Positions 15,511-24,395 of a stretch of 64,000 nt of DNA are shown here, in pieces; positions within the stretch are counted from its first letter, which is position 1; each line of letters opens with the position of its first letter. The stretch spans positions 1-64,000 of the forward strand of contig WGMV01000025.1 in the NCBI GenBank assembly GCA_016124905.1. Direction: 5' to 3'. The DNA is from a bacterium. Its GTDB lineage: Bacteria > Pseudomonadota > Alphaproteobacteria > Rickettsiales > RI-342. The position numbers and the translations under genes were made by a program. The notes beneath the pieces are model-generated. The model was not told where the DNA came from. It did no database searches and saw nothing but the letters and a program-made list of their open reading frames with translations.

Positions 15511-15534
15511 ATCATAATGAGTATCATAATGAGT
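15511..15534 (+). repeat. 12-bp tandem duplication at the purH start
   Basis: ATCATAATGAGT occurs twice in a row, at 15511-15522 and 15523-15534. Each copy carries an in-frame ATG for purH (15517 and 15529), with a third ATG at 15541. No good Shine-Dalgarno sequence is visible before any of them. Confidence 0.8.
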
Positions 15535-17100
15535 CATCCCATGCTGGTTCCCATCAAACGCGCGCTTATTTCCGTTTCCGACAAGACCGGGCTCATCGCC
15601 CTGGCGGAAGTGCTGCACAAGCATGGGGTTGAGATTCTCTCCACCGGCGGCACCGCAAAGGCCATTCAGGCCGCCAATATCCCGACCGTTGAAGTGGCCG
15701 ACTATACCGGCTTTCCCGAAATGCTCGACGGCCGCGTCAAAACGCTCCACCCTAAAATCCACGGCGGCCTGCTCGGCGTGCGCGACGACGAACATCACCG
15801 CGCCGCGATGGACCAGCACGGCATTGGCAATATCGACCTCGTCGTGGTCAACCTCTACCCGTTCGAGGCCACCGTCGCCAAAGGCGCAAGCCATGAGGAA
15901 ATCATCGAGAATATCGACATCGGCGGCCCCTCCATGGTGCGCTCGGCCGCCAAAAACCACCGCTTCGTCACCATCGTCACCGAAGCTGAGGACTACACCC
16001 AGGTCATCGCCGAGATGCAGGCCAACCGCGGCGCCACCAGCCTCGACCTCCGTCAGCGTCTGGCCGCCAAAGCCTATGCCCGCACCGCCAGCTACGATGC
16101 CGCCATCGCAACCTGGTGCAATGCCAACCTCGCGGGCGGCAACTGGCCCACGCGCTTCACCCTCGCGGGCGAGCTCAAGCAATCCCTCCGCTACGGCGAA
16201 AACCCGCACCAGAAAGCTGCCTTCTACGTCACCGATGGCAGCACCCCCGGCGTCGCCTCCGCCGAGCAGCTGCAAGGTAAGGAACTCAGCTACAACAATA
16301 TCAACGATACCGACGCCGCCTGGCTGCTGGCCGCCGAGTTTGATGAACCGGCCGCCGTCATCGTCAAACACGCCAGCCCCTGCGGCGCCGCCACCGGCAA
16401 GAATTTGCTGGAAGCCTACGAACGCGCCCTCGCCTGCGACCCCGTCAGCGCCTTCGGCGGCATCATCGCCCTCAATCAAACGCTTGATGAAAAAACGGCC
16501 GAAGCCATTGCCAAGCTCTTCGCCGAGGTCATTATCGCGCCGGATGTAAGCGAACAGGCCCTTGCCATCCTTTCCGCCAAACCCAATGTGCGTGTGCTGA
16601 AAACCGGCGGCATGCCTTCACCCGCCCAGCTCGGCCTCGCCGCCCGCAGCGTCGCCGGTGGCCTTCTTCTTCAGGATTTGGATGCCAAACGCGTGACGCG
16701 TGAGGACATGACCGTGGCCACCACCCGTCAACCCACCGAGGCCGAATGGGCGGACATGCTCTTCGGCTTCCGCACGGTCAAACACGTGAAATCCAACGCC
16801 ATCGTCGTGGCGCGCAACAACGCCACCATCGGCATCGGCGGCGGCCAGACCAGCCGCGTGGACGCCACCGAACAGGCCCTCGGCCGCGCCGCCAAAATGC
16901 ATGGCAACCTGCTGAAAGGCGCCAGCCTCGCCTCCGATGCCTTCTTCCCCTTCCCCGACAGCATCGAGCTAGCGGCCAAAACCGGCATCACCGCCATCAT
17001 CCAGCCCGGCGGCTCCATGCGCGATCAGGAAGTGTTAGATGCTGCCAACAAGCTCGGCCTAGCCATGGTCATCACCGGCGCACGGCATTTCAGGCATTAA
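15517..17100 (+). CDS. purH: Bifunctional AICAR formyltransferase / IMP cyclohydrolase PurH
   Basis: 527 aa, the normal length. It catalyses the last two steps of de novo purine synthesis, from AICAR to FAICAR to IMP. The N-terminal IMP cyclohydrolase domain (about 1-200) starts [14 protein letters not shown] and has [10 protein letters not shown] and [13 protein letters not shown]. The formyltransferase domain has [12 protein letters not shown] (the catalytic Lys-His pair), [13 protein letters not shown] and [11 protein letters not shown]. Three in-frame ATGs crowd the start because of a 12-bp duplication; 15517 is the longest choice and 15541 the shortest. It works with purine salvage by hpt, also in this window. 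Confidence 0.95.
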
Positions 17101-17116
17101 TCATTAACTCCCCAAC

Positions 17117-17145
17117 CGTCATTCCAGCGAAAGCTGGAATCCAGC
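17117..17145 (+). repeat. Family A hairpin, left end of the GIY-YIG element
   Basis: The 29-bp unit starts CGTCATTCC and folds as ATTCCAGC (17121-17128), GAAA tetraloop, GCTGGAAT (17133-17140). It is the perfect reverse complement of 17486-17514, so the two units bracket the GIY-YIG gene in opposite orientation. Confidence 0.92.
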
Positions 17146-17186
17146 CAACGTCTCCACAACCTCATACCCAACAGATAATGCGTCCC

Positions 17187-17474
17187 TCAAAACAAGGACG
17201 CATACAAATCTTTCCATTCAGAATTCAGCGCCGCAATGGCCTGTAATTTCCAAACCCGCTTCCATGCCTTGATAGTCGTCTCCCGCAGAATTGCCTGCTC
17301 CATGGATTCATGCACCTCAAACCACACCAGCATATGCAAACCATAACGCTTGGTGAAACCTTCCATATCCCCTGCTTTATGCTGCGCCACCCGTTTGGGT
17401 AAATCCGACGTTACTCCCACATACAGCGTGCCGTTAGGCTTATTGGTCATCATGTAAACGCATGGCTTTGTCAT
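17187..17474 (-). CDS. Small GIY-YIG nuclease-domain protein
   Basis: 95 aa, essentially one GIY-YIG domain. The signature is VYMMTNKPNGTLYVGVTSDL (a Y-x-x-Y-V-G form), followed by the Arg in LPKRVAQHK and the metal-binding Glu in ILRETTIKAWKR. Members of this group (YhbQ/UPF0213-like) have uncertain roles; the domain is a DNA nuclease fold in UvrC and homing endonucleases. I chose the ATG at 17474; a TTG at 17480 would add two residues. No Shine-Dalgarno sequence is visible, and the right-hand 29-bp repeat lies only 11 bp upstream, so transcripts would probably carry its hairpin. Being enclosed by an inverted repeat pair suggests a mobile or repeat-maintaining unit. Confidence 0.88.
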   Translation of the reverse strand: MTKPCVYMMTNKPNGTLYVGVTSDLPKRVAQHKAGDMEGFTKRYGLHMLVWFEVHESMEQAILRETTIKAWKRVWKLQAIAALNSEWKDLYASLF

Positions 17475-17485
17475 GGGCAAGCACC

Positions 17486-17514
17486 GCTGGATTCCAGCTT
17501 TCGCTGGAATGACG
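17486..17514 (-). repeat. Family A hairpin, right end of the GIY-YIG element
   Basis: Perfect 29-bp inverted copy of 17117-17145, with the GTCAT end pointing outward. The whole unit 17117-17514 is 398 bp. I see no clear target-site duplication outside the two ends. Confidence 0.92.
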
Positions 17515-17646: not shown

Positions 17647-20600
17647 TTAAACCGCCCGGCTTACCGCCTCAACCTTCCTGAGCGCCACCACCAGCCGCGC
17701 CGTATCCAGCGAGCCGGAGGCCGCGATATCATCCATCGCATGCTTCATGCGGCTGACACTCGCCTGGTTGCGTTCCATCCAGTCGGCCACGGCCACATCG
17801 GGCGTTTTGGCTTTGGGTGCGGCTTTCAGCACTTCACCGGCAAGGCGGGCATGCTGGTCAAACAGTTCGCTCTCCATCGCCGTCAATGCCTGGCGTGACC
17901 AGTCATCGGTCGGCTCCAGCTTATTCACGGCGGCATGCAGCTTATCCATACCCACCTCATGGCTCAGGTGCATGTAAACACCGGCCACATACGCCAGGGA
18001 CACCTTGCTGCTTTCGCTCACACGGATGATATCGTAGGCGCCTGCCATCCAGGGCAGCAATGCCATGGTACTGGCCAGTTCTTCCGGCACACCGGCATCG
18101 GTGTAATGCGCAGCCACGCCAATTAGCTCCGCACGGATGCCTTCGCTCATCATCTTTGGCAGGCTTTCCATCAATTGCTGCACCGGCGCACTGAAACGCT
18201 GCACCGCCTCTGCCACATTCAGCGGGTGCGGCAGGTTACGCAGCAGCCACAGCGTCAAACGGTACAGCAGCTGGTTGATGGCCACAAACATGCTCACCTG
18301 AATGTCGGCGCTTACCTTGCCGTCCAGCGCCTCGATGGCTGCCCAGATGTCGCGCAGCTTGAAGCTGTCGCGCGCCACCACATAGGCCCGTGCGATGTCG
18401 CAGCTCTGCATGCCCACATCGTCCGTCAGCTGATAAAAGAACGTGCTGCCCACGCGGTTGATGATGGAGTTGGTCGTCATCGTGGCGATGATCTCACGGC
18501 GCAGCTGATGCTGCTCAATCACCTTGGCGTAACTCTCCCGCATGTTCATGGGGAAGTAACGGATGAGATCCTGCGCGAAATAGGGATCGTCCGGCAGGGT
18601 GGATTGCAGCAGGTCACGGAACAGGTGCATCTTGCTGTAGGCCAGCAGCACGGCCAGCTCCGGCCGGGTCAGGCCTTTTTTCAGCGTCTTGCGTTCCTCC
18701 AGCTGTTCATCGTCGGGCAAAAACTCAATGCCGCGGTCCAGTATGCCGTCCTTCTCGAGCATTTTCATCACCCGTGCCTGCGGCCCGAGCAGAGAGACGC
18801 CCTGGCGTTCGGCAATGGTCAGCGCCTGTGTCTGCAGGATATTGTCACGCAGCACGAGGAATTCCACCTCCGGCGTCATCGCCGCCAGCAGCTCGTCGCG
18901 CTTGGGTATATCCAGCGCGCCGGATTCCACCGCACGGCGCAAGGCGATTTTGATATTCACCTCATGGTCGGAGCAATCCACCCCGCCGGAATTATCAATC
19001 GCATCCGTATTGATGCGCCCGCCATGCAGCGCATACTCGATGCGCCCACGCTGCGTGAAGCCGAGGTTACCGCCCTCGCCCACCACCTTGCAGCGCAGGT
19101 CGCGCCCATCCACGCGCACGGCCTCATTGGCGCGGTCGCCTACATCCGCATGGTTCTCTTCTTCCGATTTCACATAGGTGCCGATGCCGCCGTTCCACAA
19201 CAGGTCTACCGGCGCCGTCAGCAGCACGCGGATCATCTCATCAGGCGTCAGGCTGTCCTGCACAATGCCGAAACGCGCCTTCATCTCCGGCGTCACCTGA
19301 ATCAGCTTGGCATTGCGCGGAAACACCCCGCCGCCTTTGGAAATCAGGGATTCATTATAATCCGCCCAGGTGGAACGCGGCAGGGCGAACAGCCGCTGAC
19401 GTTCCACAAAGCTCGCCTTCGCATCCGGGTTGGGGTCGATGAACACATGCATATGGTTGAATGCGCCGACCAGTTGCATGGTTTCCGACCGCAACAGCCC
19501 GTTGCCGAACACATCGCCCGCCATGTCGCCGATGCCCACCACCGTGATGGGATCGCGGTTGGGGTCGATTCCCATTTCCTGAAAATGCCTGCGCACGGAT
19601 ACCCACGCCCCTTTGGCGGTAATGCCCATTTTCTTATGGTCATACCCTGCCGAGCCGCCAGAGGCGAACGCATCCCCCAGCCAGAAGCCGTAGCTTTCCG
19701 ACACGCCATTGGCAATGTCGGAGAAGGTCGCCGTGCCCTTGTCCGCCGCCACCACCAGGTAAGGATCGTCGCCGTCATAACGCACCACGTTCTGCGGCGG
19801 CACCAGCTTGCCCTTCACCATGTTGTCGGTGATGTCCAGCAGGCCGGAAAGGAAGGTGATGTAGCAATAAACGGCCTCGTCCTGAAGCTCCTGACGGTCG
19901 CCGGAAGCGGGCGGCTCCTTCACATAGAACCCGCCTTTCGCGCCTTCCGGCACGATCACGGCGTTCTTCACCATCTGCGCTTTCAGCAGACCCAGCACCT
20001 CGGTGCGGAAATCCTCGCTCCGGTCGGACCAGCGGATACCCCCACGCGATACTTTCCCCCCGCGCAGATGGATGCCCTCCACCCGGCGCGAATAGACGAA
20101 TATCTCGGCAAACGGCACCGGCTTCGGCAAAAACGGTACCTTATGCGAGGCGAATTTGAAAGACAGGTAGGATTTCGGCTCCTGCTTGCCGTCCGTATTT
20201 TCATGCGTCTGGAAAAAGTTCGTGCGCATGGTGGCCAGCATCAGGTCCGCATAACGGCGCAGGATGCGGTCTTCCGTCACATTGGTCACGGCATTGAACG
20301 CCTGGTCCAGTTCTTCCTTCAGCGCGGCCTGGCGCGCATCGCGGTGCCCACCCAGCTCCGGGTTGAAGCGCGCATGGAACAGCTGCACCAGCAGGCTCGC
20401 CACTTTCGGGTTTTTCGCCAGCGCATCTTCCATTGCTTCCTGGCTGTAGAAGAACCGCACCTGCTTCAAATATTTGGCATAGGAACGCAGCATCACCACA
20501 TCGCGCCACCCCATGCGGGAAGCGATCACCAGACGGTTGAACCCGTCATTGTCGATTTCCTGATGCCAGGTTTTCAGCAGCGTTTCCTCGAACAGGGCCT

Positions 20601-22515
20601 TGATGGAAGAAAGCGGCGGCAATTCACCCTGCCGCAAACGCAGCCGGAAATCATGCACCCACACGCCATTCTCCACGCCAAGCGGTCCCAGCCGCACCGG
20701 CACCTCTTCCAGCACCTTCAGGCCCATATGCTCCAGCACCGGCAGAATGTCCGAAAGCGCCACCTGGTTGCCCGGGCTGTACAGACGAAGCGTCAGCGCC
20801 TGCTCACCCTCATCCACGCTGCACAAATCCACCGTGATGGATTTTTTCGCCATCACCAGCTCGATATTGCGGATATCCTCAATCGCACGCGGCACGGCAT
20901 AACGCGCCACATAATCGCTGCTGAAAGCCTTGCCGTAAATGCGCATCATCTTGGCGCCGTGGTTGGGGCCGTAGGTTCCCTGCAGCGCCTTGCCGAGCGA
21001 CTCGTCCCACGCGCTCACCGCATCCGCCAGGCGGGCATTCAGGGCATCCATATCCACCTCGGGTATATGCCCCGGCGTCGTGTGCAGCTTAAACAGGATG
21101 CGCGCCAGCGGCGAATCGGTCAGCTGGGTGTAAAACGCATCCATCTTGGCGTGGTAGGCCTCTTCCAGAATCGCCTGAATCTTGGTGCGCATCTCGGTGG
21201 AAAAGCGCGTGCGCGGCACATACACCAGGCTCACGATAAACCGCTCAAACTCATCCTTACGGGTAAACGCCCGCACCCGCGGCCGCGTCTCCAGCGAAAG
21301 CACCCCCATGGCCGTGCTGTGCAGTACATCTTCCGACATCTGGAACATCTCATCCCTCGGCAGGAATTCCAGAATGGTCGTCAGCGCTTTGGCATCATGG
21401 CTGCGCGGGGCAAACCCGGCGCGTTCCAGCACATGCTCCGCCTTCTGGCGAATCAGCGGGATATCGTCCATCTTTTCAAAATAAACCGTGGAGGTGAACA
21501 ACCCGACAAAACGGCTCTCACCCACCAGTTCGCCACGGTTGTTCAGGCGTTTCACACTCACCACATCCAGCGCAATCGGCCTGTGCACGGCGGATTTGGC
21601 ATCCGATTTGGTGATATAAATCAACTCGGGCCGTTTTTTCAAATGCGTCGTTTCATAATCGGCCAGCTTGACTGCGGGTGCCAGACGTTTCGGCACATCC
21701 GGGGAATAAAGCCCGAGGCGGGATGCTTCATCCGCGCTCAGGCCGCCCTTTGCATCCAGCGTGTAGTCCACCGCGCCGAGAAACACGAAATGATGGTTGC
21801 GCAGCCAGGCGAGAAACGCCAGCGCCTCGGGCATTTCATCCCGCGCGATGGAAGCTGGCAGCTGGCGCAGATGGCCGGTAAGGTTCTCCACCTTGGCCGT
21901 CATGGAAGGCCAGTCCGCCACGCAATGACGCACGGCATGAAACACCTCTGCCGCAGCCTTGGAAAATACCTGCATGTCATGCTCGTCGCCAACATGACTC
22001 ACTTCCATATCGATGAGCGATTCCGCCTGATAAACCGGTGTTTCATCAGCCTCTTCCGCGCTGCCGAGCGCTTTCAGCACGCCATCCTTGTCGCGTTCCA
22101 CAAACAAAATCGGGTGAATCAGCGACAGCACCTCATAGCCTTGCCCCCCTGCTTCGGATGTCAGGGAATCCACCAGAAAGGGCATATCGTCATGCAAGGT
22201 CAGCACATGGCTGCTGGGCGCCTGCCAGCCATGCTGCTTGATGGTGGGGTTGTAAAGATGGATTTTGGCGGGTTCCGACGCCGGACGCTTCTGGATGAAC
22301 TCCCACGCGGCCAGCGCCCGCTTGCAGGCCTGCACCGGGTCCAGCCCCTGCAGGTCGACCTCGGGAAGATGACGAAAATATTCATGGATAAAGCGCGGCA
22401 GCAGTTGCGGCTGCGAAAATTCGATGTTTTTAGGAATCGCATTCAGGATGTTTTGCAAAACGGGATTGGTCTCTTCCACCGGCTTGGAAACAGCGCTCAT
22501 CCGTTTGGCTGGCAT
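17647..22515 (-). CDS. gdhB: NAD-specific glutamate dehydrogenase, giant GDH-180 class
   Basis: 1,622 aa, typical of the 180-kDa class found in alphaproteobacteria, Pseudomonas and Streptomyces. It oxidises glutamate to 2-oxoglutarate and ammonium with NAD, feeding amino-acid carbon to the TCA cycle. The long N-terminal part (to about 700) holds ACT-like regulatory domains. The catalytic core near residues 820-1130 has [39 protein letters not shown] (the catalytic Lys region), [16 protein letters not shown] and [12 protein letters not shown]. The C-terminal 400 residues are helical. The start at 22515 has AAGGA 6 nt upstream and is preferred over 22530. SucCD, encoded 20 kb away, works downstream of its product. 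Confidence 0.96.
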   Translation of the reverse strand: [1622 protein letters not shown]

Positions 22516-22541
22516 AATGCGTCCTTTCATCCATATTTCCG

Positions 22542-24303: not shown

Positions 24304-24330
24304 CGTCATCCCGGACTCGATCCGGGATCC
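24304..24330 (+). repeat. Family A hairpin, left of a convergent pair
   Basis: CGTCAT head with stem ATCCCGGA (24308-24315) / TCCGGGAT (24321-24328) and a 5-nt loop. It has the same plan as 17117-17145 but a different stem sequence. It forms an outward-facing inverted pair with 24362-24385, about 82 bp in all, in the gap between ndk and mutL. Confidence 0.85.
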
Positions 24331-24361
24331 ATGCTGACATCCGCAATAAAACAAAAAGATA

Positions 24362-24385
24362 GATTCCGGCCTTCGCCGGAATGAC
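24362..24385 (-). repeat. Family A hairpin, right of a convergent pair
   Basis: Reverse orientation: ATTCCGGC (24363-24370), CTTC loop, GCCGGAAT (24375-24382), then GAC completing the GTCAT head on the minus strand. It sits 10 bp from the mutL stop at 24396. No gene lies in the 31-bp spacer between the two units. Confidence 0.85.
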
Positions 24386-24395
24386 AACAACCAAC

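Follow-up and report, generated by a model that had tools for sequence, protein, structure and literature searches.

Why should a small nuclease gene lie between two perfect, oppositely oriented copies of one hairpin, and do gene and hairpins belong together? The question is raised by a locus in a 64,000-nucleotide stretch of DNA (the window) on contig WGMV01000025.1 of a bacterium of the rickettsial RI-342 lineage, where a repeat-gene-repeat unit of 398 bp (positions 17117-17514, with no strand of its own) is contained in the 546-bp gap between the convergent genes purH and gdhB. On comparative sequence grounds, this unit probably consists of a stand-alone GIY-YIG nuclease gene and, on either side of it, the repeats that its product recognises. 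A preliminary description had reported a GIY-YIG protein inside a perfect 29-bp inverted repeat, and had likened the layout to repetitive extragenic palindromic (REP) sequences and their REP-associated tyrosine transposases (RAYTs).

The repeat structure is as described there. CGTCATTCCAGCGAAAGCTGGAATCCAGC matches exactly at positions 17117-17145 on the plus strand, downstream of the gene, and at 17486-17514 on the minus strand, where the identical inverted copy upstream of the gene ends 11 nt short of its ATG, with zero matches expected in shuffled sequence. When folded as DNA, each 29-bp copy forms an 8-bp stem with a GAAA loop and an outward-pointing CGTC head (-7.8 kcal/mol; folding z of -4.5 and -5.1), and no Rfam RNA match was found at the site of the unit. 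The repeats fit the definition of the CGTC-1 REP family in having an unpaired CGTC head, an AT-starting 8-bp stem, a 4-nt loop and a CCA tail, the family of Di Nocera et al. (2013) that also includes the dRS3 repeats of Neisseria (PMC3733652). Their dispersal, mostly as single copies or head to head, is likewise that of CGTC-1 REPs, as pattern searches of the 2.36-Mb genome (47 contigs) returned 28 copies of the gene-flanking type against none for the reversed-pattern control, with seven head-to-head pairs, most having starts 66-72 bp apart, and no tail-to-tail pair. Unlike the CGTC-1 REPs of Di Nocera et al., however, the repeats of the window enclose a gene.

The enclosed open reading frame (17187-17480, minus strand) encodes 97 amino acids from a TTG, or 95 amino acids from the ATG at 17474, two codons later. 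The protein matches PF01541 (GIY-YIG) with E=1.4e-16 and carries the catalytic residues Y9, Y20, R30, H34, E67 and N86, whose invariance across homologs argues for an active nuclease. Its AlphaFold2 model (pLDDT 92.5) finds as best solved structures Slx1 (Z 7.2, root-mean-square deviation 2.9 over 93), UPF0213 (6.7), UvrC (6.1) and I-TevI (5.9), and although these Z values are middling, the ranked list of structures and the sequence concur in a predicted GIY-YIG fold. The best PDB matches by sequence are UPF0213 proteins (E=6.5e-4, and 6.6e-7 by profile), small GIY-YIG proteins (PDB 1zg2, 1ywl) that the window protein resembles in size and fold, but from which its sequence may set it apart as a different subfamily. 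A comparison with known defence proteins gave nothing beyond weak homing-endonuclease-like matches. Weak profile matches to homing endonucleases reflect the shared GIY-YIG domain; an intron or intein homing endonuclease was rejected, as the gene is intergenic and lies inside no other gene. No homolog was present in 50,697 phage records, and a phage origin was also rejected.

A genuine association between hairpins and GIY-YIG gene across many phyla is supported by a survey of 80 homolog loci from GTDB genomes, which are the best matches to the query and not a random sample, with statistics that treat related genomes as independent, making effect sizes rough. A hairpin was found within 100 bp of 53 of the 80 GIY-YIG genes and of 10 of the 255 other genes at the same loci (odds ratio 48, p=3.5e-31), so that the enrichment which the preliminary description had proposed to look for is very strong. 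Altogether, the 80 loci contain 193 CGTC hairpins versus 2.7 in shuffled sequence, and hairpin density is 7.6-8.8 per kb up to 50 bp from the gene but 0.01-0.13 per kb at distances above 1 kb. With this gradient and the difference between GIY-YIG and other genes, flanking by chance was rejected. The loci come from Pseudomonadota, Thermodesulfobacteriota, Bipolaricaulota, Nitrospirota, Bacteroidota, Chloroflexota, Planctomycetota, FCPU426, Elusimicrobiota and Myxococcota, where assignments from metagenome-assembled genomes (MAGs) carry the usual binning risk. The same association is seen among 55 relatives, in which at least five repeats were counted in 18 of 26 genomes with the gene and in 3 of 29 without it (p=7e-6).

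The hairpin sequence, moreover, follows the protein. Nearly all homologs own a GTCAT-headed inverted hairpin, with stems varying among TGCGAG, GGGCTTGACCC, GAACTTGTTTC, CCCGTC and others; none was found at uvrC (L003/L133) or at the most divergent homolog (L029), the most distant match examined. Across different genomes, protein identity correlates with repeat similarity (r=0.62, reached in 0 of 2000 permutations), and within the order of the window alone the correlation is r=0.16 (18 of 2000 permutations). Paralogs within one genome have different hairpins, whose similarity is at background level (7.4 of 15 positions); the second GIY-YIG paralog in the genome of the window has its own hairpin ATTCTCGG, present in three exact copies. 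On a protein tree built from few columns and with many unresolved forks, repeat class changes 33 times versus 61 in shuffled data (0 of 200 shuffles). Such co-variation together with paralog-specific hairpins is what one would see if every enzyme recognised a hairpin of its own, and recognition of the flanking hairpin by the window protein is inferred from it. Variation in the head was also observed: two loci of relatives (L008 and L027, in genomes G040 and G020) have CGAAAT in place of CGTCAT with gene and hairpin alike in other respects, which may reflect a shift in recognition. CCTCAT-headed hairpins CCTCATCCCTGTGCTCGTCACAGGGATCCA that resemble the known rhizobial RIME elements flank the GIY-YIG gene at L136 (Sinorhizobium meliloti) and L135, and on plasmid p1 of Planktothrix agardhii (L140) a homolog is located between an MmeI-type restriction gene and the DISARM gene drmA, with GTCATTCTGAG-type repeats around it.

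A nuclease with such properties is reportedly known from Neisseria, where Ssn, said to have appeared in Nat Commun in 2025, is a GIY-YIG enzyme that cuts single-stranded DNA at the repeat NTS and modulates transformation; NTS is said to occur in hundreds of copies, and Ssn to have many homologs of differing specificity. In N. gonorrhoeae a single homolog of the window protein (49.5% identity, E=7e-26), presumably Ssn itself, lies inside a dense dRS3 array in a record with 113 exact copies of the searched dRS3 pattern. This location makes the window gene best filed as an Ssn-like, putatively site-specific GIY-YIG nuclease with cognate repeats. The resemblance covers a small stand-alone GIY-YIG protein whose catalytic residues are intact, cognate repeats that surround the gene and also recur across the genome, and repeat specificity that tracks the protein in correlation as well as on the tree. 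The differences lie in the stem (CCAGC in the window, CCCGC in dRS3), in copy number (28 versus 113 of the searched pattern) and in arrangement, with two neat flanking copies in place of an array. Since a GIY-YIG nuclease that acts on dRS3-type repeats has reportedly been described already, the idea is less new than the preliminary description had assumed. Two 2.17-Mb N. gonorrhoeae records filed as plasmids in PLSDB (NZ_CP119140.1 and NZ_CP119142.1) are chromosome-like in size and content.

The window contains four hairpins of this kind by pattern search. Besides the two flanking the gene, the gene-free inverted pair announced earlier is real, comprising CGTCATCCCGGACTCGATCCGGGATCCA at 24304-24331 on the plus strand (stem CCCGG, 5-nt loop, a type with three copies in the genome) and its head-to-head partner TGTCATTCCGGCGAAGGCCGGAATCTA at 24360-24386 on the minus strand (stem ATTCCGGC), but its stems, although related, are different from those of the gene-flanking repeats. 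In head-to-head pairs of this genome (L122, L125, L127, L128 and L129), the hairpins are near-identical and their spacing near-constant, with mostly unrelated spacers, a combination left unexplained by the simple copying of a single element.

Gene and repeats seem to move jointly, as one unit. The neighbours of the unit, purH (15517-17100, plus strand), which served as an anchor for synteny, and a gene for a gdhB-type NAD-glutamate dehydrogenase (17647-22530, minus strand), are adjacent in relatives, where the gap between them measures 2 bp in G023 (L168) and about 77 bp in G012 (L174) and holds neither gene nor repeats; the intergenic flanks there do not align base by base. A further site without the unit is seen in relatives of Azospirillum lipoferum 4B, whose unit sits between sufB and sufC and is absent from A. 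ramasamyi, A. oryzae and strain B510 with sufB-sufC flanks 95-96% identical. Three loci (L103, L106 and L113, the first and last within one MAG) have in common a block of 413-434 bp with 87-94% identity in unrelated flanks, which begins at the CGTCAT head and stops within about 5 bp of the opposite one; between L106 and L113 the start is exact and the stop is 5 bp beyond that head. Sites without the unit and blocks that end at repeat heads in unrelated surroundings point to joint movement of gene and repeats. Two Bipolaricaulota MAGs share a 500-bp block bounded by an outer palindrome (CATAAGCGCTAACTTAAG / CTTAAGTTAGCGCTTATG). GIY-YIG units within this palindrome or its relatives were observed at L069, L087 and L104, from Bipolaricaulota and a deltaproteobacterium, and similar palindromes surround the CGTC-1 dimers of H. 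neapolitanus (PMC3733652). When outer inverted repeats were scored to ask whether the unit inserts into pre-existing hairpins, they slightly exceeded permuted pairs (4.38 versus 3.75, 0 of 1000), a difference that repeat clusters or shared base composition could cause.

How the unit spreads admits more than one explanation. It could be an autonomous mobile element, whose GIY-YIG enzyme excises or copies the cassette through its repeats and inserts it as RAYTs do for GTAG REPs, gene-free pairs being non-autonomous derivatives. This is possible but falls short of probable. Repeat-head boundaries, two copies in one MAG (L103 and L113) and the gain at sufB-sufC are the traces that a surviving REPtron would leave, and the seven head-to-head pairs agree with it; the perfect 29-bp terminal inverted repeats are in addition a feature of insertion sequences. 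On the other hand, no target-site duplication was seen at 17117/17514, as was also reported earlier, the remaining within-genome paralogs tested are diverged, so that recent jumps are rare, the spacers of gene-free pairs are unlike those of fresh copies of one element, and the shared Bipolaricaulota block extends past the repeats to the outer palindrome. Recombination between repeats would also explain a cassette with repeat-to-repeat boundaries, and homologous recombination after horizontal DNA uptake, with the nuclease only making ends or limiting the uptake of repeat-bearing DNA, may likewise be entertained, if tentatively. It agrees with the reported link between dRS3 and Ssn, with the occurrence of the gene and repeat type in several phyla, and with ComEC and DprA homologs in this genome, though E. 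coli also has such homologs; against it, the purH-gdhB gap of relatives, albeit distant ones, offers no repeat as a possible landing site. The comparison with REP/RAYT units holds for the layout, inverted REPs flanking a gene with gene-free head-to-head pairs elsewhere, and as an analogy of function, but fails for the enzyme, since the unit has neither an HUH Y1 tyrosine transposase (TnpA-REP) nor GTAG heads. A RAYT as the maker of the repeats, with the GIY-YIG gene a bystander, is very improbable: the genome does have one RAYT-like (Y1) gene outside the window (C25:70762-70959; 165 aa, C25:70543-71040, L198:444-941, minus strand) with a CGTC-1 repeat about 53-55 bp beyond its stop codon, but this gene carries its own GGGGGTTGCACCCCC-type hairpins, and Y1_Tnp occurs in only 11 of the 55 relatives, of which 4 have at least five repeats, compared with 17 of the 44 others. 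In the survey of Di Nocera et al., no RAYT had CGTC repeats on its flanks (PMC3733652). It is hardly credible that the hairpins are mere terminators or stabilisers of mRNA and flank a small gene by coincidence. The unit does lie between two convergent genes, a usual place for terminators, but the hairpin sequence changes in step with the protein rather than with the site, and the enrichment is specific to the GIY-YIG gene.

Several observations weigh against a nuclease bracketed by its own recognition repeats. By the strict pattern, 18 of the 80 loci have no nearby CGTC hairpin, though most of them carry another GTCAT-headed inverted repeat; five relatives have the gene and zero repeats of the searched pattern, and G028 has 57 CGTC-1 repeats without the gene. 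The survey drew on best matches from genomes that are not independent. Repeats without an intact gene, as in G028 and in G050 (44 CGTC-1 repeats, gene broken), are to be expected if genomes can lose the gene once its repeats have become dispersed, and in these two genomes, where no intact homolog was found, the repeats have possibly outlived it. As for the two findings that the preliminary description had named as contradicting it, a lack of hairpin enrichment near GIY-YIG genes elsewhere and an ancestral locus with the gene but not the repeats, both were looked for and neither overturned it.

If the gene is indeed flanked by its own recognition sites, the nuclease would most likely recognise the CGTC-headed hairpin as single-stranded DNA, judging from the co-variation, and would nick it, by analogy with the single-strand cutting reported for its Neisseria homolog Ssn. 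Gene and repeats would have been inherited or gained as a cassette of about 400 bp with the repeat heads as its ends, as is seen in relatives, and the other repeats of the genome would be copies of those sites that lack the gene. The effect of the nuclease would probably be local, with single strands that bear the repeat being cut in the course of replication, repair or DNA uptake. This may shape recombination and allow the cassette to establish itself at new intergenic positions.

CGTC REPs rank with the most common short repeats of proteobacteria, and no enzyme was found for them in the survey by which they were defined; Di Nocera et al. regarded them as lacking a dedicated transposase and considered that CGTC REPtrons may have disappeared (PMC3733652). 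The present data suggest that the nuclease is an enzyme of a bacterial repeat class once thought to have none. This pairing names a candidate enzyme for many repeats, including dRS3, the Rickettsia-type repeats and the rhizobial GTCAT/CTCAT hairpins, and offers the rule that protein subfamily predicts hairpin, making the homologs a natural library of sequence-specific small nucleases; how REPs spread without RAYTs also becomes a directly testable question. GIY-YIG genes enclosed by CGTC-type repeats could even be, though this is put forward with some doubt, autonomous mobile elements responsible for spreading their hairpins. They would then represent the CGTC REPtron that was believed to have vanished, and every enzyme lineage would be paired with a hairpin of its own. 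If true, this mode of REP mobility would be driven by a GIY-YIG nuclease in place of an HUH transposase.
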